Shown here one piece after another: positions 39,617 through 60,285 of a stretch of 64,000 bases of DNA. Both the position numbers and the translations under genes were made by a program. Source of the stretch: Sphingomonadales bacterium (GTDB lineage Bacteria > Pseudomonadota > Alphaproteobacteria > SMXS01); assembly GCA_022844405.1 (NCBI GenBank), contig JALHLV010000017.1:1-64000 (forward strand), read 5' to 3'. Each line of letters starts with the position of its first letter. Position 1 is the first letter of the stretch. The notes beneath the pieces are model-generated. The model saw only the letters and a list, made by a program, of their open reading frames with translations, was not told where the DNA came from and did not search any database.

Positions 39617-42600
39617 TCAATCGCCGGTGATGCTGTTGGTGGCGCTGTTGCCGATCGACGTGGAGCCGATGTTGTTGCCGCGGATGGTGAACGAGCTGCC
39701 GGTGCTGGCGCCGTTGATGCTGCCGCCGGCGACCAGGCCGATGCCGATCGTCACGTTGTCCACGGTCGACGATACCGTGACGCCGGTGTTGGTCTGGACG
39801 TTGAGGACCGCCGACGACGGATGCTGGAATGTGCCCGTGTCGAGGATCAGCTCGTTCTCGGCATAGTTGCCGGTCGCCCGCGCCAGCACGTTGTTGCCGT
39901 TCACCGCGATGGCGCTGTTGTCGACGCCGCCGGTGCCCGAGAGGTCGTCGACGCCGATGGTGACCGGCTCGGCGGCGCCGCCGATCGTGGCGGTAACGGT
40001 CGATGGTGTCTGGCTGCCGGTGTTCGACTGGTAGTTGAGCACCACGTAGTCCACGCCGGTCGTCGAGGCGAACGGCGCGGCATTGGAGATCGTCGCGCCG
40101 CCGGCGGCGCTTGCCTGCAGCGTGGCGCCGGCCGAGGTCGTCATCGAATTCAGCGCGACACTGCCGCTGGCGGTGGCTAGCAGATCGTTGGAACTCACGG
40201 AGACGGCGCCGTTGAGCACCGCGCCCGCGGCGTCGTCGAAGGTGGCGCTGATGTCCACCGTGTCGATGTCGGCGGTGATCGCGGCGCCGCCTAACACCTG
40301 GGAGCCGATCACCTGGGAGTTGATCAACTGCGACGTCGCGTCGCTGGCGGCGCCAGCGCGGAGGCTGATGGTGTTGCTGGCCCAGAAGCCGCGGGCCGTG
40401 GACTCCACCAGATTGTTGTCGACCGTGACGGCGTCGCCGCTGGACAGGGACGTGATGTCGATTCCCATCCTGGACGATACGATGTCCGACGTGATCGCGA
40501 CGCTGTCGCCCGACCGCTGCGAGTTGACGATGTTGAAATCGCCGTTGGCCGTCGGCAGGCTGGCCAGCGGCGCCGGCGCGGCCGTGCCGCCGACGATGGT
40601 CGCGCCGGAGTTCACGACCAATTCGTTGGTGACGGTGCCGCCGATGGCTGTGCCCGAAGTCGTGTTGCCGGATACCGACGTGGCGCTGGCGCCCGCGTTG
40701 GCGGCGCTGTCGACGGTGATGTTCAGGTTGACGCCGGTGACGGTCGCGCTGGCCGTACTGCCCTCCGCGACCGTCTGCTGCGACGCGACCGACGCACTGG
40801 CGCCCGCGACGCCGAGCGGATCGTCGACCGCGGCGCCGGAGAACAGGCCGAGCCCGTTATAGGCGCCGTGGATGGTACTGCTGGCGCCGACCACGTTGTT
40901 GTCGACGGTCAGCGTGCCGCTGTTGAGCGTATCGACCACGGTCTGGATCGTGGCGCCGTTCACGCTCGTGCTCACCGAATCGCTCACCCCGAGCAGGCCC
41001 TGCGGACCCTGGGCGTTGATCACGCCGTAATCGGCGTTCACGATGACGCGGCTGGCGCCGTCGATCTTCGTGTCCGGCGTCGTGTCGTCCGAGCTGCTCG
41101 ACAGGACCGTGCCCTTCGACACCAGGATGTTGCTGGTGTCGTTGACGGTGCCGACCGCACCGATCGTGTTGCCGTTCAGATTGATGGCGTTGCCGGTGAT
41201 CACAGTCGCCCCGGCACCGTCGGCGTCGACCAGGATGGCCGCGTTCGCGACGTTGGCGGTGACCGTGGGACTGCTCGCCGACTGCTGCACGTTGCCGACG
41301 AAAGCCTGGCCGTCATTGCTGACGAAATCCAGATCCAGCCGGTTCTTCGATGTGTTGGCGCCGGCCTGGGCGACCAGCTTGTTGCCGCTCTCCGAGATGG
41401 TGGTGTTCGAGATGGTGTCGGCGGCATCGACGATGGTCTGGATGCGCACCGGATCGCCCGGCGTGCCGGTGAGTTCGGCGATGACGCTCAGCGCGTTGAG
41501 CTGGTTCGAGCCGATGCCGAACGTCGCGTCGTTGAAGGTGATCTGGCCCGTGGGACCCAGCAGCGTCGCGGTCGGCGCGTTGGCGCCGGGCTCGACGTCG
41601 GGCAGCGTCGTTCCGGTCGCCGCCAGCGTGTTGACCACGGTATTGACCTGGGCGAAGGCGCGAATGTCGTTCTTGTCCTGCGTGATCGTCGCACCGGTGA
41701 TGTCGCCGTCGACATCGCCGCCGGGGCCGTTCATGTCGATGATGGACCGGACGGCGTTTACCGTCGCCGACAGGCCGGCATCGCTGTCCTCTCCAATAGC
41801 CTGCTGGTTGGACGCCAGCATGGCGATCGGGCCGTTTTGCGCCACATCGCCGACGCCCGCGCCGGTCAGGTCGTAGGTCTCGACATTCAGCACGATGCCG
41901 TTGGTCGCGTCGTTGCCAATCGCCTGGGCCATGATCGAGTTGCCGTCGATCTCGGCCACGCTGCCTTGGCCGAAATCGGTGCCGGCCGTGCGGATGTTCA
42001 TGCTGAGATCGGAATTGTCGAGATCGACACTGACGCCGTAGCCGCCCCCGGCATCGGCCAGATTCTCGAAATACTGATCGTTGACCAGCGACACCTCACT
42101 GCCGACATCCACCTCGAAAAAGTTGATGACGAGGTTGTTCGCGGCGGCCGCGGAGGTCCGCGTCAGGGTCTGGGTCTGGGCAGTTTCGGTGATCGTATTG
42201 CTGGCCAGGTTGACCCGGCCCGACGCCAGCAGCTTGTTGCCGTTGATCTGCACGACCACGCCGAGCATGTCGAACGCGCCGCTTTCGACCTCGACGCTGA
42301 TGTCGCCGTCATACTGGTCCACCTCGATGCCGGCCGACTTGCCGTCATTGTCCTCGTCGGCCACCGTCTGCACGTTGACCAGCGACGGCGAGCCGTTGAG
42401 CGAGGTGGTGGTGGCGCCGCCGACGGTGATCGCCGACGTGGCCTGGTTCAGGGTGGCGGCCGAGGTTCCCTTGTTGCCGGATGCCGTCACCTGGGTGTTG
42501 GACATGTTGGTGAGCGACGAACCGGCGCGCAGCCGGATGAAGTCGCTCTGGTTCGGCTCGTCGCCGGTGACCGCGGTGACGATGGCGCCTTCCAGGTCCT

Positions 42601-44842
42601 CGACGGACTGGTCGTTGAGCAGCGCGAAGCCCGCATCGACGGTCGTGACCAGCGCCGAACCCGTGCGGTCGACACTGGCCGCCGGTAGATCGAAGGTGCC
42701 GTCCGAGATGGACAAGCCGGTGAGGGTGATCGAATTGGTGGACGCTTCGACCAGATTGGCCCAGACGAAGGCGCTCATCGCATTGTCGTCGACGTTGACG
42801 GCGGCCTTGCTGAAGGTGTTCGGGAATGCGTCCACCTCGATCAGCGTGGTGTCGGTGGACGAGGTCAGCGTGGCCGACAGCTGCGCGCCGTCCTCCACCG
42901 TCTGGGAATTCACCAGACCGACCGTGCCGCTGGAGCCGCCGCCCGCCAGCGAGTTGGCGTCGATCGTGATGCTGGATTCGCTCGACAGGTTGCCGATCGC
43001 CTGGGCGTAAATCTGGTTGTCGGAGACGCTGACCGTCGCATCGGTGATCGCCGAGCCGACACCGCCATTGCGCGCCGTCCAGGAAATGATCCGCGTATCG
43101 ACGGACGAAACCGCGCCGCCGCCGTCCAGGACCTGGGCGTTCAGCACGCTGAAGCCGGCCTCGACGGCGCCCGAGGTGGTCACATGGTTGACCGAGATGG
43201 TGGGCGCTGCCGCGCCGCCCAGGCCGGTGACCGTATTGCCCTGATCGATTTCGAGGCTGCTGCTCTGCGAGTTCCCGACGGCCTCGGCATAGATGAAATT
43301 GCCGTCGACATAGATGCCGTCGGCCGGCACGGTGCCGGCCGCGCCGGCATCGCCGGCGGCGCGCACAAACAGCTCGCTGCCCGTCACCGTGGCCGTCTGC
43401 AGCCCTTCGGTATACTGGGCGTTGTTGATCGCCGCGATGCCGCTGAGGCTGGTGGCCTTGGTCACGTCGATCAGGTTGACGGCCTCGCTGCCGCTGGAGG
43501 TCGCCGCGATCGAGTTGCCCGTGGCGTTGATCACGCTCGAGGTCATGTCGGAGACGTTGACGTTGAGGTCGCCGTTGGTCACCGTGGCGGTCACCGCGAC
43601 GTCGCTGTACTGCACGTTCTGCACGAACAGGTCGGCCGCCACGCTGGCCACGTCCGGCGCGCCCACGGTGAACGAGTTCTGCTGGCCGCCGGCCACGGCG
43701 TTGCCATCCAGGCTGACGTCGTCGAGCAGGACGCGGTTCAGCGAGCTGTTGTCCGACGCGGCCGCCAGGATCGAGTTGCCGGTGAAGTCGATGGTGGTCG
43801 TGTTCAGGTCGGCGACGGCGACGTCATCGGCCAGATTGGCCGACGTCTTGTTGGTGTTGCCGATCTCGATGGTCGAATCCGTCACCGACGCGGTGAACGC
43901 CACGCCGCCCTGACTGCCCTGGACGCTGACCGCGCCCGCCGAGCCGTCGAGCTTGGTGAAGCCCACGTCCTTGCCGTCGATCAGGTCGATGTCGACCAGG
44001 TTGGCGGCCTCGTTGCCGGTGAACTGCGCCCGGACGGTGCTGTTGGTCAGGTCCAGGTTGACCCCGACCAGGCTGGTCGGGGTGCCGTCGACGACCGCCG
44101 ACGAGCCGATCCGCGATCCAGACACCGCCGCGCTGGCGCCCGTCAGGTTGATGTTCTGCTGCGCCGAGGTGGCGAGCAGGCCGCCGGACACCACCAACTC
44201 GTTGGGCGCGCCCGGGTTGGTCAGCAGCGACGAACCGACGTCGGCATTGGTGAACAGCGGATTGAGCACGCCGGAGATTTCGGTCGACGCCAGATTACCG
44301 CTGGCGTCGGACAGGATCCCCAGATTGTCCAGGATGACCGAGCTGCCGGTGCCCAGATCCTCGAACGCCGAGTTGATGAGGCCGTTGGTGGTCGAGGCGG
44401 TGATGCTGACGGCCGCATTCGTCTGCGGCGCGGTGGCATAGGCGCCGCCGGTCACCACCTTCAGGTCGACGAAGGCGCCCGGATCCGGATCGTCGACATC
44501 GGTGTACAAGCCGTTGACGATGATCGGATCGACGGCGGCGTTGCCGACCGCCAGCGAGAAGATGGTGTTGTAGTCCGCGAGGGCGACGATCGGACCGCCC
44601 TCGACGTCCGCGGGGGTGAAGGCCGGCGGCATGACCAGGGTCACATTGGCCGAACTCGCCGTCACCGACGTGGTGCTGTTCGACTGCACCGTGCCCACGC
44701 CGTGCGAGAAGCTTGCCGCCGCCAAGGTCGGCGGAATCACGCTCAGATCATAGGTCAGCGTGGTCGCCTGGGCGCCGGAGACGCCGGCCGCGGACAGCAG
44801 CGCGAACACGCTGGCCGACGTAAGGATGCGAGAGTTGTTCAT
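39617..44842 (-). CDS. giant (1,741-aa) secreted Asn/Gln-rich beta-repeat protein, adhesin/fibre-like
   Basis: Signal peptide with cleavage near GAQA-TT (residue 26). The mature chain has a strongly biased composition (Ala, Val, Thr, Ser, Asn, Asp; almost no Cys, Trp or aromatic cluster) and consists of about 18 imperfect units of about 60-110 residues. Each unit has a core like NxxxAxAxGNxxxN, e.g. SDNQIYAQAIGNLSS, DGNSIMAQAIGNDATNG, NGNNVLARATGNYAENE, RGNNIGSTSIGNSATN, alternating with a VxNxQ strand, e.g. GLVNSQTVED, ALLNDQSVED, LVNVQTVAD, FNIVNSQRSGD. N and Q at regular places and short strands suggest a stacked beta-solenoid or amyloid-like protein. It ends in a repeat with no autotransporter barrel, LPXTG or type-I secretion tail visible, so the export route is unclear. 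G-rich ribosome site (GGGGGGC) precedes the ATG. Function is inferred only. Confidence 0.8.
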   Translation of the reverse strand: MNNSRILTSASVFALLSAAGVSGAQATTLTYDLSVIPPTLAAASFSHGVGTVQSNSTTSVTASSANVTLVMPPAFTPADVEGGPIVALADYNTIFSLAVGNAAVDPIIVNGLYTDVDDPDPGAFVDLKVVTGGAYATAPQTNAAVSITASTTNGLINSAFEDLGTGSSVILDNLGILSDASGNLASTEISGVLNPLFTNADVGSSLLTNPGAPNELVVSGGLLATSAQQNINLTGASAAVSGSRIGSSAVVDGTPTSLVGVNLDLTNSTVRAQFTGNEAANLVDIDLIDGKDVGFTKLDGSAGAVSVQGSQGGVAFTASVTDSTIEIGNTNKTSANLADDVAVADLNTTTIDFTGNSILAAASDNSSLNRVLLDDVSLDGNAVAGGQQNSFTVGAPDVASVAADLFVQNVQYSDVAVTATVTNGDLNVNVSDMTSSVINATGNSIAATSSGSEAVNLIDVTKATSLSGIAAINNAQYTEGLQTATVTGSELFVRAAGDAGAAGTVPADGIYVDGNFIYAEAVGNSQSSSLEIDQGNTVTGLGGAAAPTISVNHVTTSGAVEAGFSVLNAQVLDGGGAVSSVDTRIISWTARNGGVGSAITDATVSVSDNQIYAQAIGNLSSESSITIDANSLAGGGSSGTVGLVNSQTVEDGAQLSATLTSSTDTTLIEVDAFPNTFSKAAVNVDDNAMSAFVWANLVEASTNSITLTGLSISDGTFDLPAASVDRTGSALVTTVDAGFALLNDQSVEDLEGAIVTAVTGDEPNQSDFIRLRAGSSLTNMSNTQVTASGNKGTSAATLNQATSAITVGGATTTSLNGSPSLVNVQTVADEDNDGKSAGIEVDQYDGDISVEVESGAFDMLGVVVQINGNKLLASGRVNLASNTITETAQTQTLTRTSAAAANNLVINFFEVDVGSEVSLVNDQYFENLADAGGGYGVSVDLDNSDLSMNIRTAGTDFGQGSVAEIDGNSIMAQAIGNDATNGIVLNVETYDLTGAGVGDVAQNGPIAMLASNQQAIGEDSDAGLSATVNAVRSIIDMNGPGGDVDGDITGATITQDKNDIRAFAQVNTVVNTLAATGTTLPDVEPGANAPTATLLGPTGQITFNDATFGIGSNQLNALSVIAELTGTPGDPVRIQTIVDAADTISNTTISESGNKLVAQAGANTSKNRLDLDFVSNDGQAFVGNVQQSASSPTVTANVANAAILVDADGAGATVITGNAINLNGNTIGAVGTVNDTSNILVSKGTVLSSSSDDTTPDTKIDGASRVIVNADYGVINAQGPQGLLGVSDSVSTSVNGATIQTVVDTLNSGTLTVDNNVVGASSTIHGAYNGLGLFSGAAVDDPLGVAGASASVASQQTVAEGSTASATVTGVNLNITVDSAANAGASATSVSGNTTSGTAIGGTVTNELVVNSGATIVGGTAAPAPLASLPTANGDFNIVNSQRSGDSVAITSDIVSSRMGIDITSLSSGDAVTVDNNLVESTARGFWASNTISLRAGAASDATSQLINSQVIGSQVLGGAAITADIDTVDISATFDDAAGAVLNGAVSVSSNDLLATASGSVALNSMTTSAGATLQASAAGGATISNAAPFASTTGVDYVVLNYQSNTGSQTPSTVTATIGGAAEPVTIGVDDLSGTGGVDNSAIAVNGNNVLARATGNYAENELILDTGTFQHPSSAVLNVQTNTGVTVSSTVDNVTIGIGLVAGGSINGASTGSSFTIRGNNIGSTSIGNSATNSITGD

Positions 44843-45148: not shown

Positions 45149-47149
45149 GTGGCGACCAGCTCGGCGGCCATGCCGCCTACCAGACGGAGAAGGGTGATTC
45201 GGCCGGCCTTGAGGACAATCGCAATGATGGCGGGCGCCGTGCTCGTGCTGGCTGCCGGCGCGCCTGCGGCGCGCGCCCAGTCAACCATGGCGCAGCCCAA
45301 AGCGCCGGACGCCATAACCAAGGAAGAGAAAGAGACCGAGGAGGCCGACCGCAAGCAGCTCGGGGAAGAAACCCGGCAGCTCGACGAGGAGAAGAAGCAG
45401 GAGGAGGAGGCCGAGGACGCCAAACGCGCGGCCCGGGGGATGCCGTCTTATGCCTACCGGGTCGACATCAACGGCCTGGAGAAAACCGGCCTGGAGAAGT
45501 TGCTGAAGGACCGCTCGGACCTGATGCGGCTGCGCAAGGAAGAGCCGGCGTCGATCTGGGATCTGCGCGCCCGCATCCGCCGCGACATCACCGGCTTCGC
45601 CGACGTGCTGCGGTCCGAGGGCTATTACGGCGCGAAGATCACCTACGAGATCGACCGCAACGCCAAGCCGATCCGGGTCGCCATCACGGTCGAGCCGGCG
45701 GAGCGCTTCACCATCGGCGCCTACGTCATCGAGCTGACCGGCCCCGCCGCGTTGCCGCAGTCGGTGAAGGACGAGGCGCGGAAGATCGCCGAGGCGCAGG
45801 TCGGCCAGCCGGCGCGCAGCGAGACCGTGGCGCTGGCGTTCGGGAAGGTGATGGGCGAGCTGCCCCAGTTCGGCTATCCGCGCGCCAAGCTGGCGCTGCA
45901 GGACTTCAAGGCCGACCACAAGGACCGCAAGCTGACCGCCCGGGTGCGGATCGACACCGGTCCGCTGGTGCGGTTCGGCGAGATCAGGCTGGACGGGCTG
46001 GCGACGGTGAAGCCCGGCTATGTCATGAAGGCGGTCACCTGGAAGACCGGCGACGTCTATGACAGCCGCAAGATCGAGGCGTTCCGCCAGGAGCTGACCG
46101 AGATGAACCTGTTCGCCTCGATCCGGGTCGATACCGACGACCCGCTGCAGGGCGACCGGCAGCCGGTCAGGATCAGGCTGCTCGAGGCCAAGCACCGGTC
46201 GGTCGGCGCCACCGCGTCCTATTCCACCGTCAACGGCTTCGGCGGCTCGGTGTTCTGGGAGCACCGCAACATCTTCGGCGCCGGCGAGCGGCTGGTGCTG
46301 GAGCTGGAAGGCGACCAGAAGCTGGTGCAGTTCAAGGCCGACCTGACCAAGCCGCGCTTCCTGCGCAAGGACCAGAAGCTGCTGTTCGGCGCCGAGGCGG
46401 CGCGCGAGGATACCGACGCGTTCCTGGAATATCGCGGCGTGCTGCGCGCGGCGGTGGAGCGCGAGGTGACCCAGCGGTTGCGCGTGCGGCTCGGCCCGGA
46501 AGTGGCGTATCTCGACACCCGCGACGCCTTCGCGCCGTCGAAGAACTTCCTGGTCGGCCTGCCGGCCATCGTCACCTATGACCACAGCGACGACCTGCTG
46601 GACCCGACCAAGGGCTACCGGCTGGACGGCAAGGTGTCGCCTTATGCGGTGTTCGGCGACGGCAAGCACTTCGTGTCCATGGAAGGCACGGCCCGGGTCT
46701 ATTTCCGGCTCGATGACGGCGGGCGCTTCGTGTCGGCCAGCCGGGTCAAGGTGGGCATGCTGTTCGGCGCCGACGACATCAGCCGCGTACCGGCATCGAA
46801 GCGGTTCTATTCGGGCGGCGGCAGCTCGATCCGCGGTTACGGCTACCAGGCCATCGGCCCGAAAGACCCGGCAGGCGAGCCCATCGGCGGCATGTCGCTG
46901 TTCGAGGTCGGCACCGAGATGCGCATCAAGATCAGCGACACCTGGGGCGTGGTGCCGTTCTTCGAGGGCGGCAGCGTGTTCGACAGCGAATTGCCCGATT
47001 TCTCGCGCAAGCTGCGCTGGGGCGCGGGCATCGGCGTGCGCTACTACACCGGCTTCGGACCCATCAGGCTCGACGTCGCGTTCCCGATCAACAAGCAGCC
47101 CGACGACGACAAGTTCCAGATCTATGTCAGCATAGGGCAGGCGTTCTGA
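45149..47149 (+). CDS. tamA: TamA, outer-membrane translocation/assembly module subunit (BamA/Omp85 family)
   Basis: 666 aa from GTG 45149, chosen because GGAGGGAG lies 8 nt upstream. After a signal peptide (AAARAQ, about 43) comes a highly charged helical segment (58-96, Lys/Glu-rich coiled-coil-like), then three POTRA-like repeats (from YRVDINGLEKTGLEKLL), and a C-terminal 16-strand barrel with the Omp85 motifs RRFLRKDQKLLFGAE-type segments and FYSGGGSSIRGYGYQAIGP (the conserved (V/I)RGY-loop) and a C-terminal QAF. TamA inserts/assembles outer-membrane proteins together with TamB, which follows immediately (TGATG overlap at 47147-47151). Confidence 0.93.
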   Translation: MATSSAAMPPTRRRRVIRPALRTIAMMAGAVLVLAAGAPAARAQSTMAQPKAPDAITKEEKETEEADRKQLGEETRQLDEEKKQEEEAEDAKRAARGMPSYAYRVDINGLEKTGLEKLLKDRSDLMRLRKEEPASIWDLRARIRRDITGFADVLRSEGYYGAKITYEIDRNAKPIRVAITVEPAERFTIGAYVIELTGPAALPQSVKDEARKIAEAQVGQPARSETVALAFGKVMGELPQFGYPRAKLALQDFKADHKDRKLTARVRIDTGPLVRFGEIRLDGLATVKPGYVMKAVTWKTGDVYDSRKIEAFRQELTEMNLFASIRVDTDDPLQGDRQPVRIRLLEAKHRSVGATASYSTVNGFGGSVFWEHRNIFGAGERLVLELEGDQKLVQFKADLTKPRFLRKDQKLLFGAEAAREDTDAFLEYRGVLRAAVEREVTQRLRVRLGPEVAYLDTRDAFAPSKNFLVGLPAIVTYDHSDDLLDPTKGYRLDGKVSPYAVFGDGKHFVSMEGTARVYFRLDDGGRFVSASRVKVGMLFGADDISRVPASKRFYSGGGSSIRGYGYQAIGPKDPAGEPIGGMSLFEVGTEMRIKISDTWGVVPFFEGGSVFDSELPDFSRKLRWGAGIGVRYYTGFGPIRLDVAFPINKQPDDDKFQIYVSIGQAF

Positions 47150-50100
47150 TGGCGGAGGCGGCGATAGAGCACAAGGGCATGACGAGACGGCTGCGCATCC
47201 CGGCCATCGTGCTGGGCGGCCTGCTGCTGATCGTCGTCATGCTCTATGCGCTGGCGCGCGTGGGCGCGTTCAACGGCGTTATCGAGGGCCTCGTCGAGGA
47301 CGCCCTGAGCGATCGCGCGACCGGTACCGTCGCCACAGTCGACGGCCTCGATGGCGATCCGCTGTCGGAGATCGTCATCAAGCGTCTCGTCATCGTCGAA
47401 CGCCGCAAGAACACGGTGGTGGCCGAGGGTATCGTCCTGCGCTGGCGCCATCTGGGCCTGCTGGCGGGACGTGTCCGGGTCGAGGCGCTGACCGCCAGGC
47501 GGTTGCTGATCGCGAGGGCGCCGCCGGGCGCCCCGGACGAGCCGTTGCCCACCGAGCTGCCCAGATTGCCAGTCGACGTGCGGCTCGACCGGCTGAAGGT
47601 CGACGAGGTCCGCTTCGAGGGCTCGCCGACCGTGTTCACCCTGGTGGGCGCCGGCCGTTGGTCCCGCGATCCCGCCATAGAACTGCGCCTCGCGCTCGCA
47701 CCGCAGGATGCGCAGGGCGAATACGCCCGCCTCGCCGTCGACTACGACCCCGGCAAGGACCGGCTGGTGCTGGACGGCAGGCTGGTCAGCAAGGCCGGCC
47801 AGGGCCTGGGCGGATTCCTGTTCCCCGGCGAGCAGGGCGACATCTCGCTGGTGCTGGCGGGCCAGGGATCGGTGAAGAACTGGCGCGGACGGCTGGACGG
47901 GCTGAGCGGCGACACGACCATCGCCGCGCTCGACATCGCCGTCACCGACCGGCTGCATATCGAGGGGTTGCTGGATCCGCGCCCGTTCCTGCCCAGGGAC
48001 GAGATCAGCGCCCTGATCGGCGCGCCGCGCGTGGTCTTCGACCTCGGGCTGAAGGACGGCATGCCCGGCGCCTACACCGCCCGCATCGTCAACGAGGGCG
48101 CCGACATCCGCTTGGCGGGCAGCCTGGCGGACCGGAAGGCCATGCTGTCGCCGCGCTTCTCCATCATCTCCAATAACGCCGCGTGGTTCGCGCCGGTGCT
48201 GGACGGCTGGACCTACGGGACGGCCTCGCTGGCCGGTGCCGTGACCCAGACCGGTGACGGCCCGAACGTGACGGCGGCCATCGCCATCGACCGGCTCGCG
48301 GGTGACGGTTTCGCGGCGCGCAAGGCTTCCGGCAACATCAGCCTGTCCGCCATCGGCGCGGGCAAGGCCATGGTCTATGGGCTGGCCGGCAAGGGCGCGC
48401 TCGAAGGCGTCGACGCCGCCGAGCGGAACCTGCGCGCCGACTGGATGCTGGACGGACGTCACGACCCGGCGAAAGGCCGCATCTCCATCGCCAACCTGCG
48501 GCTTTCCGACGGCGGCTCGCGCATCGCCGCCAAGGGCGACGTGATCCTGTCGCCGCTGTCGGTGAAAGGCTCGGCGACCGTCGCCGTCGCCGATGTGGGC
48601 CGCTGGGTGGACGCGGGCGTGCGCGGCCGCGTCGACGCCGACGGCAGCTTCGAATGGCAGCCCGATTCGGGCCGGCTGATGGTAAAGGCGAAGGGCGCGG
48701 GCAAGGGTCTCAGGCTGGCCGATGCGCGCCTCGCCGCACTGCTCGGCCCGTCGCCGACGTTCCGGCTGGTGCTCGACGATCCCGCCGGCCGCGGCCAGGG
48801 TACGCTGGACGGCGCGGTCGCCGGCGCGCAGGTGAAGGCGCGCCTGAAGGGCCGGATCGGCGAGACCATCGACGCCGCCTATGAGGCACGCTTCGCCAAC
48901 GTCGCCAGCCTCACCGGCGACGGCGCGCTGAAGGCCTCGGGCCCGGTGACCGTGACTGGCACGCTGAAGGGCGACGCCGCGTCGCCCGACGTGACCCTGC
49001 GCGCGGCCTTGGCGCACGCCTCGCTGTCGGGCGTCAGGATCACCGACGTGACGCTGACCGCCGAGGCAGGCGACGTGGCCGGCGCGCCGCGCGGCCGGAT
49101 CGACGCCGCCTTCGCCATGGACGGCGAGCCGATGACCGCGGCGATCCCGTTCGTGTTCGACGAGAGCGGCGCCTGGCGGTCCGAACCCGTCGCACTCAAC
49201 GGCGAGTCGGCGAGCCTGTCGGGCGTGCTCGCCGCCGCGAGCCTGGGCGCGCCGATGACCGGCAAGCTCGACCTGCGCCTTTCGGGACGCGGCGTGATGA
49301 CCGCGCTGGCCGGCACGCCGGCGGCCGGATCCGTCAACGGTACCGTGCTGCTCGATCCGGAGGGCGAGGCGCAGGGGCTGCGCTTCGACCTGGCGGTGAC
49401 CATGGGATCGTTCGCCACGGGCCGGGAGTCCGCCGTCACCGTGGCCAGCGCGCGGCTCATGGGCGACGTCGCCATCGGCGAGGCGCTAGACGTGCGCCGG
49501 ATCACCCTGGACGGCAGGGACGTCACCTATGACCGCGCCAGGCTGGCCAGCCTGACCGCCACCATCACGCCGAGCGGCAACGGACTGGCACTTGCCGCCT
49601 CCGCCAAGGGCGAATTCGAAGGGCCGCTTTCCCTGTCGCTGAAGGGGCGCGCCGACCGCGCGCTGCTGGCGGCGCCCAACACCATTACCCTCGACAGCCT
49701 GAACGGCACCATAGCCGGCCAGAAGATCGCCCTGCTGGCGCCGGCCACGGCGGTGCTGGCGGAGGGCTACACCGATATCGGCCCGGTCCGGATGAGCTAC
49801 AACGGCGCGCCGCTGGAGCTGCAGGCGACGCTGCGGGACGGCGGCAGCACCGCCCGCCTCTCCGGCAAGGATCTGGACCTGGCGGCGTTATCGGCGCTGA
49901 CCGACGGCCAGGACGTGGCCGGCAGGCTGACCATCGACGGCGAGATCGACTTCACCAGCGGCGCGCCGCGCGGCAACGCCCAGCTCCGAATCGCCGGCCT
50001 GATCGTCGAGGACACGCTCGACCGCCGGCCCGTCGACGTAAAGGGCGGCGTGACGCTGGCGGACGGCCGGCTGAAGGGCGGGCTGACCCTCGACACCAGC

Positions 50101-51507
50101 AGCGAACGGGCGCTCGACGTGACACTCGACCTGCCGGTGGCGCGCGGCACCAAGGGTCCGTTCGCGCTCGCGGTCGAGGTCGACAAGCCGCTGACCCTGC
50201 AGCTCAAGGGCAACGCCGAGCTGGCCTATCTGTGGCCGCTGACCGGCGCCTATGAGCACATCCTGGGCGGCCGGGCGACGGTGGATGCGCGGGTCACCGG
50301 CTCGGTCGCCGATCCCACGCTGAACGGCAGCTTCGCCATCGCCGGGATGACCTACCGCAACCTGTCGACCGGCACAAAGGTCGAGGCGGCCAATGTGCGC
50401 TTCGTGCTCAAGGACAGCCTGCTGGAGCTGCCCGCGACCAACGCGACCGACGGCGGCAAGGGATCGATCGTGCTGTCGGGCTGGGTGAAGCCGCTGGCGC
50501 CGGGCGGCACGCAGGCCGACATCACCGCCCGGTTCACCAAGGCGCGCATCCTGAAGCTGCGCGACATGACCGCGCGCGCCACCGGCCAGATCCAATACAC
50601 CCAGGACAAGGACGGCGCGCTGCTCGAGGGCGAGGCCACGGTCAACGACGCCGAGTACACCCTGAACGCCAAGGCGTCGGACGACTTCGTCAGGCTCTAC
50701 GTGGTCGAGCTCAACCGGCCGCCGGGCCTGATCAGCTTGCCGGAGAAGCCGACCGAGCAAACCTTCAAGACCCGGCTGCGAATCGACGTCACCGCCGGCA
50801 ACCGCATCTTCGTGCGCGGCCGCGGTCTCGATTCCGAGTGGCGCGGAGAGGTCCGCGTGCGCGGCACCGCGGACCAGCTCGCGCTGCAGGGACGGGTCGA
50901 TCTGGTGAAGGGCGAGTTCGATTTCGCCGGCCGCAAATTCGTGCTGCAGAACGGCTCGCGGATCGAGCTGCTGGGCGGCACGGATCTCGATCCGGTCATC
51001 ACTGCCCGGGCGGTCTATTCGGTCACCTCGCTGACCGCCGAGATCCGGCTGACCGGGCGCGCCTCCAACCCGCAGATCAAGCTGTCGTCCAACCCGGAGA
51101 TGCCGCAGGACGAAATCATCTCCCGCGTGCTGTTCGGCCAGGGCAAGCAGAACCTGTCGGCGTTCGAGGCCGCCCAGCTCGCCGCCGCCGTCGCCTCGCT
51201 GGGCTCGTCGGGCTCGGGCTTCGACGTCATCGGCAAGCTGCGCGGCGCCTTCAGCCTGGACCGGCTGACTGTCGGCACGCTGGACCGCCCCGGCGCCCGC
51301 GACGAGGGCGGTGCCGGCAAGCCGGTGATCCGCGGCGGCAAGTACATCACCAAGAACATCTATGTCGAGATCGGCAGCGCCACCGAGGAGGAGGACGCCC
51401 AGTCCGCCTCGGTCGACATCGACCTGACCAAGCACCTGAGCGTCGGCACCGAGGCGACGACCAGCGGCAACCAGAAGTTCCGGGTCCGCTACAAGCTGGA
51501 TTACTGA
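47149..51507 (+). CDS. tamB: TamB, translocation/assembly module inner-membrane subunit (AsmA-like/DUF490)
   Basis: 1,452 aa. N-terminal membrane anchor (about 18-42, IPAIVLGGLLLIVVMLYALA), then a very long beta-helical AsmA-like/RBG-type body of repeating strands (GDLNG, GRxxL, VDGxL...), and a C-terminal TamB/DUF490 domain about 1,090-1,452 with RGRGLDSEWRGEVRVRGTADQ and SNPEMPQDEIISRVLFGQG. TamB spans the periplasm to TamA and, by current evidence, also carries glycerophospholipids to the outer membrane. Coupled to tamA by overlapping stop and start codons. Confidence 0.95.
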   Translation: MAEAAIEHKGMTRRLRIPAIVLGGLLLIVVMLYALARVGAFNGVIEGLVEDALSDRATGTVATVDGLDGDPLSEIVIKRLVIVERRKNTVVAEGIVLRWRHLGLLAGRVRVEALTARRLLIARAPPGAPDEPLPTELPRLPVDVRLDRLKVDEVRFEGSPTVFTLVGAGRWSRDPAIELRLALAPQDAQGEYARLAVDYDPGKDRLVLDGRLVSKAGQGLGGFLFPGEQGDISLVLAGQGSVKNWRGRLDGLSGDTTIAALDIAVTDRLHIEGLLDPRPFLPRDEISALIGAPRVVFDLGLKDGMPGAYTARIVNEGADIRLAGSLADRKAMLSPRFSIISNNAAWFAPVLDGWTYGTASLAGAVTQTGDGPNVTAAIAIDRLAGDGFAARKASGNISLSAIGAGKAMVYGLAGKGALEGVDAAERNLRADWMLDGRHDPAKGRISIANLRLSDGGSRIAAKGDVILSPLSVKGSATVAVADVGRWVDAGVRGRVDADGSFEWQPDSGRLMVKAKGAGKGLRLADARLAALLGPSPTFRLVLDDPAGRGQGTLDGAVAGAQVKARLKGRIGETIDAAYEARFANVASLTGDGALKASGPVTVTGTLKGDAASPDVTLRAALAHASLSGVRITDVTLTAEAGDVAGAPRGRIDAAFAMDGEPMTAAIPFVFDESGAWRSEPVALNGESASLSGVLAAASLGAPMTGKLDLRLSGRGVMTALAGTPAAGSVNGTVLLDPEGEAQGLRFDLAVTMGSFATGRESAVTVASARLMGDVAIGEALDVRRITLDGRDVTYDRARLASLTATITPSGNGLALAASAKGEFEGPLSLSLKGRADRALLAAPNTITLDSLNGTIAGQKIALLAPATAVLAEGYTDIGPVRMSYNGAPLELQATLRDGGSTARLSGKDLDLAALSALTDGQDVAGRLTIDGEIDFTSGAPRGNAQLRIAGLIVEDTLDRRPVDVKGGVTLADGRLKGGLTLDTSSERALDVTLDLPVARGTKGPFALAVEVDKPLTLQLKGNAELAYLWPLTGAYEHILGGRATVDARVTGSVADPTLNGSFAIAGMTYRNLSTGTKVEAANVRFVLKDSLLELPATNATDGGKGSIVLSGWVKPLAPGGTQADITARFTKARILKLRDMTARATGQIQYTQDKDGALLEGEATVNDAEYTLNAKASDDFVRLYVVELNRPPGLISLPEKPTEQTFKTRLRIDVTAGNRIFVRGRGLDSEWRGEVRVRGTADQLALQGRVDLVKGEFDFAGRKFVLQNGSRIELLGGTDLDPVITARAVYSVTSLTAEIRLTGRASNPQIKLSSNPEMPQDEIISRVLFGQGKQNLSAFEAAQLAAAVASLGSSGSGFDVIGKLRGAFSLDRLTVGTLDRPGARDEGGAGKPVIRGGKYITKNIYVEIGSATEEEDAQSASVDIDLTKHLSVGTEATTSGNQKFRVRYKLDY

Positions 51508-56915: not shown

Positions 56916-58184
56916 TCAGGGAAATCCAGGACCGCGGGGGGAGCCATCCCTGGAGATCGGCGTCGTCCCGAGATGAGCGATGCCGGGAACCAGCGGAATC
57001 GGCGTTACGATGGTGGCGGTCTGTCCCGGCATGAAGAAAATACCGTTCGGATGCAGCACCAGCGCCAGCGGATCGTGCATGACCGAGACGTAGTTCCGGC
57101 CGCAGCAGTCGTTGAGATGGCGGATCAGCCATTCGCGGCGATCATACAGCGACTGGTCCGACAGCGAGAGTTGCACGAAGCCGGGCTGGTCCCAGTTGCC
57201 GATGGAATAGGCGCTGCGCGCCACCGGCGACGGATCGGACGGATCCTCGGCGCTCTGCAGCGGCTCCACGTTGATGGCCTGGAACGAGTTGACGTTCTCG
57301 AACGAGTTGATCGGCCCCCAGGGCCGGAACCGGCTGCGCGGATAGACCACGAACTCGCCGCTCTCGGGCCGCTCGCCCTTGGCGAACTGGGAGACGTGGA
57401 CCACGCTGACCTTGTCGCCGAGATCGACACCGGCGAGATCGCCCCTGGCGAGAGCGACCATGTAGGCCTTGTCCTCGGCAGGCTCGTCCGGCGCGGCATC
57501 CGGATTAAACAGCGGACCGCCGTCGTAACGCTCCTCGGCGGGAACGTCCTGCAGCGGGCCGTCGCCGGGCAACGGGCCGGTCGCCAGCTTCGGCGGCGCG
57601 CCGGTCTCGGGCAGCGAACGGTCGAACAGCGTGCCCTTGGACCGGCTGCGCGACAGCGGCGCCATGGAAATGCCATCGGCCAGCTCGGCGCCCATCAGCG
57701 CCCCTTCCGGGCCGACGATCGACCGGGCGTGGGCGCGGCTGACCCGCTTCATGAACACGGTGCGGGCGCCGACGCCACCGTTGTCGGGCGTCGCCGCGGC
57801 GGGCCTGTCGAGGGCGTTCTCGACGTTGCTCAGGTCGCTGCCGCGCTGAAAGGCATCAGGGCGGTTGCGGATCGTGGGATCGGCGGCCTCGCCGCGCGGC
57901 GCGGGCGCGGCGTCGCCCTCGATCCAGCGGCGGAAGGAGGGCGAGACATGCTCGGCCCACTGGACGCCGGGCGCCGGCTGGCCCGTGATGCCGGACGGCG
58001 GCGGGGTCGTGGCGGGTGGCGGGCGAACGGCGTATTCGTCATCCACCCCGCCCAGCGGCGAGGCGTCACCGGTGACCGGCTCGACGGACCTCTCCGAGTT
58101 CAACGGCTGGGCATTCGCGGCGGTGGCGAGCCATCCCGCCACCATCGCCGCGACCATTCCCGAACCCAACCGCCATGCTCTCAC
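56916..58184 (-). CDS. secreted proline-rich protein of unknown function in a CsgG/HfaB-like cluster
   Basis: 422 aa. Signal peptide cleaved near ATAANA-QP (residue 26). The N-terminal 60 residues of the mature protein are Pro/Gly-rich (RPPPATTPPPSG), and the remainder is not recognised: the C-terminal part (from about 270) has strands YPRSRFRPWGPINSFENVN, DQSLYDRREWLIRHLNDCCG, and NYVSVMHDPLALVLHPNGIFF, including a vicinal CC. It is the last gene of a leftward operon after the CsgG-OmpA lipoprotein (40 bp gap), so a role in the same secretion or surface structure is likely by association only. Confidence 0.65.
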   Translation of the reverse strand: MRAWRLGSGMVAAMVAGWLATAANAQPLNSERSVEPVTGDASPLGGVDDEYAVRPPPATTPPPSGITGQPAPGVQWAEHVSPSFRRWIEGDAAPAPRGEAADPTIRNRPDAFQRGSDLSNVENALDRPAAATPDNGGVGARTVFMKRVSRAHARSIVGPEGALMGAELADGISMAPLSRSRSKGTLFDRSLPETGAPPKLATGPLPGDGPLQDVPAEERYDGGPLFNPDAAPDEPAEDKAYMVALARGDLAGVDLGDKVSVVHVSQFAKGERPESGEFVVYPRSRFRPWGPINSFENVNSFQAINVEPLQSAEDPSDPSPVARSAYSIGNWDQPGFVQLSLSDQSLYDRREWLIRHLNDCCGRNYVSVMHDPLALVLHPNGIFFMPGQTATIVTPIPLVPGIAHLGTTPISRDGSPRGPGFP

Positions 58185-58224
58185 CGTTGTTCCCCCTGGC
58201 TTGCCAACGGCCGCATCCGGCGCC

Positions 58225-59538
58225 TCACTTCAGCAGGGCGGTATCTTCCAGGATCTGGATGACCACGCGGCGGTTGAGCGGCTCGGCGGTGTTGTCGCCG
58301 GTCTTCACGGCCGGCTGGCTTTCGCCGTACCACACCAGCGAGATGCGGTTCTTCGGAATGCCTTCGCTGACCAGCGCCTCCTGGACGACCACGGCGCGGC
58401 GCCGCGACAGATCCAGATTGTAGACTTCGCCGCCCTGGGCATCCGCGTGGCCTTCGAGCAGAAGGTTCGCGGCCTGGCCGGCCTTGGCGGCGGCCGCGGC
58501 GTCAGCGATCGTCTTCTGCGCTTCCGGCGTCAGCTGCGCGCTGGCGGTGGCGAAATAAACCGTGAAGGTGCTGGCCTTGGCGGGAGCCGGGGCTTCCGGC
58601 GGCGGCGGGGGCTCGGTCGGCGCGACGGCGACCGGAACGCCGGCCACGGAGGGGCACGGGTTGACGCCCTCGAAATTGACCAGCGGCCTCTCGTCGATGC
58701 CCGCCACCGAGCCGACCAGCTGCAGCACGCCCAGTTCCAGGGTGGTGCGGACGCCGAGCTGCAGCGGCTCCTGGCTCTTCATGCCGGCATTCACGTCGAC
58801 CAGCGTGTTCTTGAAGAACTCGAACACGTTGGCGGCGACTTCATAGCCGGTGATCTGCTTCTGGAGGCTGACGGTCTTGAGCACTTCCAGCGACGAGGTA
58901 TCGACGATGCGCAGGTCGACGGCGACGTTGACCGTGAACACGCGGCCCTTGGCGCCGATGCCGTCTACAGTCGCTTCCAGACCGCCCGAGTGCACGTTGT
59001 AGTTCAGCTCGGTGATGCCGCCGACGATGAAGTAGTCGGATTCGATGACCGTGCCGCCATAATAGGGCTTCCACGGAACCTTCTGCGTCCCGCCGGTCTT
59101 GCCGCGCACCTCATGCACCGAACCATCGCCCAGGTAGCGCCGGTCCAGGTAGCGCAGTTCCAGTTCGGTGACCTGGGTGTCGAAACGTTCCTGCAGCCGC
59201 ACCGCGTCGCCCAGCTTGCCGAGCGCCGACATCACCATGAGCGAACCGCCCTGGGTGATCGGGTTGCCGCCTTCCGATTCGCTGAATTTGCCGGTGTAGT
59301 CCTTCACGGTGCCGACCGCGACGCGAATCCTGTTGCGGCCGCTCTCGCGGATCTTCTGGGCCATGCACTGGAACGTACCCTCCAGCGGGGTGGTATTGTC
59401 GGTGACCGGAGGACCCTGAACGGTCGGCGCTTCGTCCGGATTGCGCTTGTAGTGATCGATGGACGCCATGCACCCCGTCAGCGAGATGATCGCTGCGTAG
59501 GTGACGATTTTTCTGCACCAAGTAAAGCCGGTCGTCAC
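58225..59538 (-). CDS. CsgG/HfaB-type export lipoprotein fused to a C-terminal OmpA domain
   Basis: 437 aa from GTG 59538, preceded by AGGGGG. This start gives a lipoprotein signal peptide with lipobox SLTGC (Cys23). The central domain (about 45-290) has CsgG/HfaB features: RIRVAVGTVKDYTGKF, GSLMVMSALGKLG, LQERFDTQVTELELRYL, DYFIVGGITELNYNVHSGG, GRVFTVNVAVDLRIVDT and LEVLKTVSLQKQITGYEV. After a Pro-rich linker (PPPPPEAP) the C-terminal about 115 residues form an OmpA/MotB peptidoglycan-binding domain (FTVYFATASAQLTPEAQK, GHADAQGGEVYNLDLSRRR, WYGESQPAV, PLNRRVVIQ). CsgG forms the outer-membrane nonameric pore of curli export; HfaB is its holdfast counterpart. The added OmpA domain would anchor the pore to peptidoglycan. 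Function in this organism is inferred. Confidence 0.85.
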   Translation of the reverse strand: MTTGFTWCRKIVTYAAIISLTGCMASIDHYKRNPDEAPTVQGPPVTDNTTPLEGTFQCMAQKIRESGRNRIRVAVGTVKDYTGKFSESEGGNPITQGGSLMVMSALGKLGDAVRLQERFDTQVTELELRYLDRRYLGDGSVHEVRGKTGGTQKVPWKPYYGGTVIESDYFIVGGITELNYNVHSGGLEATVDGIGAKGRVFTVNVAVDLRIVDTSSLEVLKTVSLQKQITGYEVAANVFEFFKNTLVDVNAGMKSQEPLQLGVRTTLELGVLQLVGSVAGIDERPLVNFEGVNPCPSVAGVPVAVAPTEPPPPPEAPAPAKASTFTVYFATASAQLTPEAQKTIADAAAAAKAGQAANLLLEGHADAQGGEVYNLDLSRRRAVVVQEALVSEGIPKNRISLVWYGESQPAVKTGDNTAEPLNRRVVIQILEDTALLK

Positions 59539-59598
59539 GATAGTCCCCCTCTTGCCCCTCGTTCCTCGGCTGGCCATTGGCCGGCCTGAACTGAGCGC

Positions 59599-60285
59599 CT
59601 AGTTCAGCGGTGCGCTGGCCGATTCGTTGAAACCGCAGGCCTCGCTGTTGTCGACCGATGCGGTCTGCGGGCTGTCCTGGTTGCCCTGATCCGAATTCAG
59701 CGCGACGTCGGAGGTCCCCCCGGACGAATTCATGCCGTCGACGCTGCCCGAAATGCTGGAATTGTCCACCGTCGCGGTCTGGGGGCTGCCCGTGTTGCCC
59801 TGCGAGGTATTGCTGAGCTGGCCGGCCTGACCCACCGCCGACGACTGCCCGGTGGAACTGCTGTTGGCCGAATTGCCGTCACCGTTGCCGGGAGACGATC
59901 CGTTGGTGGACGTGCTGCTGATATTGCCGGTGGCATCGGCGCCGATATTGCCCGGCATATCGATCACCGGCGACGAGGCGCTGCTGCTGACGCCGTTCGA
60001 CGCCGAATTGCCGATCGCCGACGCCGTCAGGTTGCAGTTGATCTGATCGCCGGCGATGTTGGTCGTGTAGGTGTTGTTGATGTTGGTGTCGAACCCGTCG
60101 TAGAAGCCGCCCTTCTTCTTCTCGCGAAGGTCGACCAAAGAGCCCTTGGCAATCTTGTCGTTGGCCGTATCGAACTGCCATGGGCGATTCTCGAGGAATC
60201 CGTTACCGAAGGCGGCGGATGCGCCTACGACGACGGTAACCACCGAACATACGGCGGCCGTCATCAACTTGTTGGCACGCGTCAT
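59599..60285 (-). CDS. secreted Asn/Gln/Ser-rich protein with curlin-like repeats, candidate subunit
   Basis: 228 aa from ATG 60285, with a very strong GGAGGGGGG ribosome site. Signal peptide (residue about 26, SAAFG-NG). Conserved-looking N-terminal mature segment GFLENRPWQFDTANDKIAKG, then NCNLTASAIGNSASNGVSSS, then low-complexity Ser/Asn/Gly, and two tandem units QGNTGSPQTATVDNSSISG (162-180) and QGNQDSPQTASVDNSEACG (200-218). The Q-G-N plus V-D-N spacing resembles curlin repeats. Two Cys (84, 217) could pair. Encoded first in the operon with the CsgG-OmpA lipoprotein (60 bp away), it is the best candidate for a secreted fibre subunit or HfaA-like anchor. Confidence 0.75.
   Translation of the reverse strand: MTRANKLMTAAVCSVVTVVVGASAAFGNGFLENRPWQFDTANDKIAKGSLVDLREKKKGGFYDGFDTNINNTYTTNIAGDQINCNLTASAIGNSASNGVSSSASSPVIDMPGNIGADATGNISSTSTNGSSPGNGDGNSANSSSTGQSSAVGQAGQLSNTSQGNTGSPQTATVDNSSISGSVDGMNSSGGTSDVALNSDQGNQDSPQTASVDNSEACGFNESASAPLN

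Follow-up and report, generated by a model that had tools for sequence, protein, structure and literature searches.

We analyzed a 64,000-nucleotide stretch of DNA from a Sphingomonadales bacterium (contig JALHLV010000017.1, positions 1 to 64,000), hereafter the window, which carries three consecutive genes designated A, B, and C. Comparisons with related genomes indicate that A-B-C probably serves to export and anchor surface proteins, and that its main cargo would be a family of giant repeat proteins represented in the window by P0005. The features concerned are as follows (positions in the window).

39617-44842, minus strand: giant repeat protein P0005, 1741 amino acids, the proposed main cargo of B, recognized with a repeat model
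39623-39712, minus strand: C-terminal half repeat of P0005, containing FTIRGNNIGSTSIGNSATNSI, conserved across classes
56916-58184, minus strand: C, a predicted secreted, proline-rich protein of 422 amino acids and unknown family; frame from GTG with a signal-like N-terminus
58225-59538, minus strand: B, an HfaB-like lipoprotein fused to OmpA (NF037935, PF03783, PF00691, and CsgG in the PDB)
58270-58557, minus strand: OmpA peptidoglycan-binding domain of B (PF00691)
58699-59487, minus strand: HfaB/CsgG-type pore domain of B (profile match), with the lipobox Cys codon inside
59599-60285, minus strand: A, a predicted secreted, Asn/Ser-rich protein of 228 amino acids; open frame with conserved homologues

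A-B-C is a leftward operon, as the initial annotation had described it, and is kept in relatives. The intergenic gaps, approximately 60 bases between A and B and 40 bases between B and C, are compatible with a single operon. Protein identities between the relatives and the window were 61-87% for A, 71-92% for B, and 28-82% for C, and this conservation at the protein level led us to regard all three as real genes. A and B were present in six genomes of the same family, in one of which B was truncated where the contig stops, and C was present in all five in which its place was readable. One A was found in seven of the 10 family genomes, and the same seven each held one B of the A-linked kind, either full or contig-cut.

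The repeat proteins are linked to A and B in distant genomes. Nine of the 14 A-B loci had a repeat protein within approximately 1.7 kb (G001, G003, G004, G087, G587, G605, Halomonas L057, Arenicella L058, and Rhizobiaceae L060), three (G002, G007, and the window) had one elsewhere on the contig at a distance of approximately 11-14 kb, one ended at a contig edge that made the repeat place unreadable (G006), and one had none in 19 kb (G175). The giant is the immediate neighbor of C, downstream and in the same orientation, in G001, G003, and G004. By contrast, the gene next to C in G002, G007, and the window is one that we take to be of the phosphofructokinase type, and the giant is located further on, beside TamB. 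The gene order in Halomonas alkaliantarctica is A, B with OmpA, a 192-amino-acid frame, and a repeat protein of 2159 amino acids; metagenome-assembled genomes (MAGs) of Arenicella and Rhizobiaceae have a repeat protein of 1597 and 467 amino acids, respectively, followed by A and B. In the alphaproteobacteria G587 and G605, A, B, and a repeat protein of 1002 or 1029 amino acids are consecutive, and G087 encodes two repeat proteins of 362-404 amino acids on the opposite strand within approximately 5 kb of A-B. The same models were applied to a control set of 25 further HfaB-like loci, of which 19 exceeded the NF037935 cut-off and six did not; neither A nor a repeat protein was present in any of them within flanks of up to 1.5 kb, beyond which a distant repeat gene could escape. 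The combination of A, an HfaB-like pore, and a repeat protein can therefore be used as a rule for recognizing and naming the family. We also noted that, in G087, a secreted protein of 154 amino acids (L052, 7873-8337) is encoded in the interval separating A from the repeat proteins, in a setting like that of CsgH and with no Pfam or NCBIfam match.

P0005 is encoded in the same direction as A-B-C, approximately 12 kb downstream of C, and comprises approximately 20 repeats of a 67-position unit spaced at approximately 85 amino acids, plus the terminal half repeat. The repeat model (67 positions) was built from 241 repeats of 12 family giants. Its matches to proteins of Halomonas (1.2e-88), Arenicella (3.8e-45), G087 (9.7e-13 for S2 and 5.2e-5), and Rhizobiaceae (S, 1.1e-7) revealed repeat homology across classes, and it found none of 200 shuffled sequences, none of nine HfaD proteins, and not the autotransporter at E<=10. 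Within the repeats, one Asn is kept in 98% and one Gln in 97% of copies. P0005 has no cysteine, where 13.5 would be expected in 1741 amino acids from 11 neighboring genes; 11 of the 12 giants have none and the remaining giant has one, and lysines number only 2-14 per giant of some 1700 amino acids (12 giants). The giants have signal-like N-termini, and the C-terminal half repeat is conserved across classes. No Pfam match of note was obtained for three repeat proteins tested, no NCBIfam match for four, and no PDB match of note for P0005. Since there is no family model at present, the giants are probably listed as hypothetical proteins in databases.

Open frames of at least 1500 amino acids numbered two in G000, 11 in G002, five in G003, five in G004, and three in G001, with lengths of 1526-1870 amino acids, such that there is one exporter per 2-11 long giant paralogues. 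No frame of this size was found in G005-G009; pieces were present in G005, G006, and G007, and one short piece in G009. That G005, G006, and G007 hold only broken or partial copies could mean that the giants are decaying repeats with no function, linked to A-B only by the shared transfer of a gene cluster. However, we consider this to be very improbable because of the long open frames with signal-like N-termini in the five other genomes and the half repeat conserved across classes. Tandem or near-tandem giant paralogues were observed at L105, L106, and G002:C46, C83, C81, and C9, with all 11 long frames of G002 in one MAG. A segment-wise comparison hinted that P0005 (at the Tam locus) is closer to the C-adjacent copies of relatives than to the Tam-locus copy of G002, as might result from exchange between giant copies.

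The fusion of a CsgG/HfaB-type lipoprotein to a peptidoglycan-binding OmpA domain, noted in the initial annotation, was supported by profile and PDB sequence matches. B starts at a GTG codon to give 437 amino acids, and its longest frame, from the ATG at 59577, gives 450 amino acids, to which the domain residue numbers refer. The lipobox is LTGC, with its Cys codon at 59470-59472. NF037935 (HfaB) is the closest curated family (residues 31-293, 2.1e-68, 230 bits). The CsgG profile search that had been recommended gave a match above the curated cut-off (PF03783, residues 177-293, 1.3e-17, 64.2 bits versus a cut-off of 20.8), and solved CsgG in the PDB matched at 1.1e-13. PF00691 matched residues 341-436 over profile positions 1-98 of 98 (8.1e-21, 74.6 bits), passing its curated cut-off.

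As HfaB is the closest curated family of B, A-B-C may also be read as a diverged version of HfaA-HfaB-HfaD, in which A (and C) would be displayed in order to anchor a polysaccharide, with the giants being unrelated adhesins exported otherwise. The order of a small secreted protein, a pore, and a third secreted protein parallels hfaA-hfaB-hfaD in the control loci, and the giant in the window is outside the operon. However, B scored 230-232 bits on NF037935, under the curated cut-off of 300 bits, which was exceeded by a gene in 19 of the 385 genomes of the class. In a tree of 34 rows (midpoint root, with a long G175 branch), 16 true HfaB rows were split from 12 A-linked B rows with a branch support of 99/97, and B is placed outside the true HfaB branch. 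HfaA was present in 12 and a strong HfaD in nine of the 19 control loci above the cut-off (by models partly built from the same loci). A and C were rejected as HfaA and HfaD because neither matched any HfaA or HfaD model at E<=5. HfaA was also undetected in all 10 family genomes, with the Caulobacter positive control detected, and no locus that we read outside the family of the window had C. Together with the repeat proteins that adjoin A-B in nine of 14 loci versus none of 25 other HfaB-like loci, these results make a divergent holdfast anchor unlikely.

Other HfaB-like genes were encountered in these searches. A search of named genomes with the HfaB domain of the window's clade returned 13 loci, five of which (L061-L065) had a true-HfaB look by eye and were 41-44% identical. 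The second CsgG match of the window's genome (L001) is a different protein, which matched FlgT_C weakly and under the cut-off of that model; by eye, there is an Hcp-like frame nearby. One alphaproteobacterial genome has five HfaB-like genes (G024:C1), and G003, which has A-B-C and a giant, has a second HfaB-like gene (G003:C2:1477077-1477811).

The N-terminus of A is hydrophobic and signal-like. Its composition (N 12%, S 17%, and Q 4%) makes it Asn/Ser-rich, and the Gln-richness assigned to it earlier did not hold; the two tandem repeat units assigned to it are present as two SPQTA(T/S)VDNS units. In an alignment of seven rows, the conserved N-terminus of A (NGFLENRPWQFDTANDKIAK..DLREKKKGGFYDGF) is kept by homologues across two classes as NG..E......F.T......, and GDQINC and a second Cys near the C-terminus are invariant. 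Homologues of A are located beside HfaB-like genes in Halomonas, Arenicella, the Rhizobiaceae MAG, G087, G587, G605, and G175. A had no meaningful match in Pfam or NCBIfam and matched no curlin, HfaA, or HfaD model, and the curlin and HfaA profiles proposed for it in the initial annotation were undetected in all 10 family genomes. Against eight A proteins, the repeat model gave 1.2e-7 for that of Arenicella, 0.25 for the whole A of the window (best piece 9e-4), and at least 0.16 for the other six, and with these scores the C-terminal half of A is a weak candidate for a degenerate giant repeat. A role as a CsgF-like pore plug was unsupported; the A profile found one unrelated solved chain at 0.3.

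These features of A bear on a curli-like reading, in which A itself is the amyloid subunit exported by B and the giants leave by a different pathway, for example TamAB. The small size of A, its Asn/Ser-rich composition, and its two short repeat units favor this reading, and P0005 is a divergent neighbor of TamA (Omp85/POTRA) and TamB (window 45149-51507). In contrast to what is expected of a repeat subunit, A has two invariant Cys and a long conserved non-repetitive N-terminus as well as no curlin match. Furthermore, the Tam adjacency applies to one giant position only, and the giant follows C in G001, G003, and G004. We therefore regard a curli-like role of A as quite unlikely. At the Tam position, the giant N-terminus and TamA are seemingly missing in G007 and G005, and TamB is also missing in G005.

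C was described in the initial annotation as a secreted protein of unknown family, which agrees with its signal-like N-terminus, the lack of a meaningful Pfam or NCBIfam match, and the lack of a PDB relative.

In the mechanism that we propose for the export unit, the lipoprotein B would form a CsgG/HfaB-type pore in the outer membrane, and its OmpA domain would tie the pore to peptidoglycan. The giants would enter the periplasm via their N-terminal signal peptides and cross B unfolded, which we infer from their lack of cysteines, near absence of lysine, and lack of an export domain of their own. Once outside, they may adopt a repetitive beta fold, with a near-invariant Asn and Gln per repeat, yielding an adhesive or fibrous coat, and several giant paralogues would be served by one exporter. 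We speculate that A is a small exported partner at the pore mouth or a nucleator or anchor, with a role like those of CsgF, CsgB, or HfaA, and that C is a lineage-specific helper. G175 has the A N-terminal motif GGYYDGFDT beside an HfaB-like gene in a locus that lacks a repeat protein, and this locus appears to favor a function of A at the pore over one in which A belongs to the giant. It consists of an A-like protein of 129 amino acids, the HfaB-like gene, and a secreted protein of 149 amino acids (L053, 7862-9576), and is possibly a minimal relative of the system.

Several observations weigh against this proposal. The giant of the window neighbors TamA/TamB and is separated from the operon by 12 kb, and no repeat protein accompanies the A and B of G175 within 19 kb. 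Transport and the surface location of the giants are argued indirectly. AlphaFold models of the C-terminal 356 amino acids of the giant (15 rows) and of A (seven rows) had mean predicted local distance difference test scores (pLDDT) of 34.5 and 33.9, respectively, and supported no fold. Since these models are not usable, a beta-solenoid or amyloid nature of the giants is a guess from their sequence. A relationship of the repeat to HfaD or HfaA was not significant (hhalign E of 0.44 and 0.09, respectively, versus 0.32-1 for 36 column-shuffled alignments); AIGN and NxQ motifs look common to the giant repeat and HfaD by eye only. Co-occurrence speaks for the proposal, with limits: among 385 alphaproteobacterial genomes, A occurred in seven (weakly in G175 and G236), the repeat C-terminus in six, and both in five; these counts are not phylogenetically independent, and as four of the five shared genomes belong to one family, they amount to about two independent cases. 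A Fisher test on the co-occurrence (p 1.8e-9) assumes independent genomes and was not relied on. Halomonas, Arenicella, Rhizobiaceae, and family f13 provide further independent loci. G005, in which the repeat C-terminus but neither A nor B was found, also fits the proposal in having broken giants only, although these could be assembly damage in an assembly of 110 contigs.

The initial annotation envisaged a variant functional-amyloid or holdfast-anchor machine. This is plausible, but incomplete, since the probable main cargo, the giant repeat family, lies outside the positions that it covered. It also singled out the OmpA fusion, which the B proteins of the window's family share with that of Halomonas. 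However, unlike A, the HfaB-like pore, and the repeat protein, the fusion is not kept across the system; it is absent from the B of G087, G587, G605, Rhizobiaceae, and Arenicella and is, thus, optional. The OmpA domain of Halomonas is 51-54% identical to that of the window, whereas the identity of either to three further OmpA proteins from the family is 37-44%. This suggests that the fusion arose once and was later lost or transferred. The C-terminal domain of B resembles OmpA/Pal-type peptidoglycan anchors in its full PF00691 match and differs from them in being fused to a predicted secretion pore.

CsgG-type pores are associated with small subunits, and, if the proposal is true, the giants would be the largest cargo known for such a pore. 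The range of pore cargo would be broadened by a relative of CsgG/HfaB devoted to proteins 1000-2200 residues long, the giants would represent a new family of natural repeat fibers or adhesins, and B would offer a testable case of a secretion pore with a built-in domain for attachment to the cell wall. In our judgment, the chances are about even that this is an unrecognized surface-fiber system of alpha- and gammaproteobacteria, in which giant cysteine-free repeat proteins that carry an Asn/Gln ladder (as many as 11 long paralogues in a genome, and 2159 amino acids in Halomonas) are displayed by one dedicated HfaB-like pore with A as its partner, and the pore is tied to peptidoglycan by OmpA in some lineages.

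By its sequences, the system is neither curli nor a canonical holdfast anchor. PMC6707917 states that the surface display of HfaA and HfaD depends on HfaB and that CsgG secretes the curli subunit. The window operon resembles HfaABD of Caulobacter in having an HfaB-type outer membrane lipoprotein with a small secreted protein upstream and a further secreted protein downstream. It differs in that profiles do not identify A and C as HfaA and HfaD, B bears OmpA and branches apart from HfaB, and the linked partner is a repeat protein, mostly of 1000-2159 amino acids, where HfaD (220-485 amino acids in the loci read) stands in true Hfa loci. A CsgG-type pore and a repetitive cysteine-poor protein with a conserved Asn and Gln per repeat are shared with curli (for the curli side, in part PMC3521004). 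In contrast to curli, the curlin repeat PF07012 was absent from all 10 family genomes, with the E. coli positive control detected, and the repeat model has 67 positions at a spacing of approximately 85 amino acids. PMC3521004 mentions that CsgA can have as many as 22 repeats and that curli-like repeats occur in large adhesins of Shewanella; neither OmpA nor HfaB appears in its text. Among the open-licence papers listed in our literature searches, none described the giants or a fusion of CsgG/HfaB with OmpA.

A protein of 1935 amino acids, P0004, is encoded just past the right edge of the window (L017:12-5816; G000:C17:64012-69816). It was rejected as a member of the giant family and is an autotransporter, with PF03797 (4.5e-62) and PATR repeats (PF12951).

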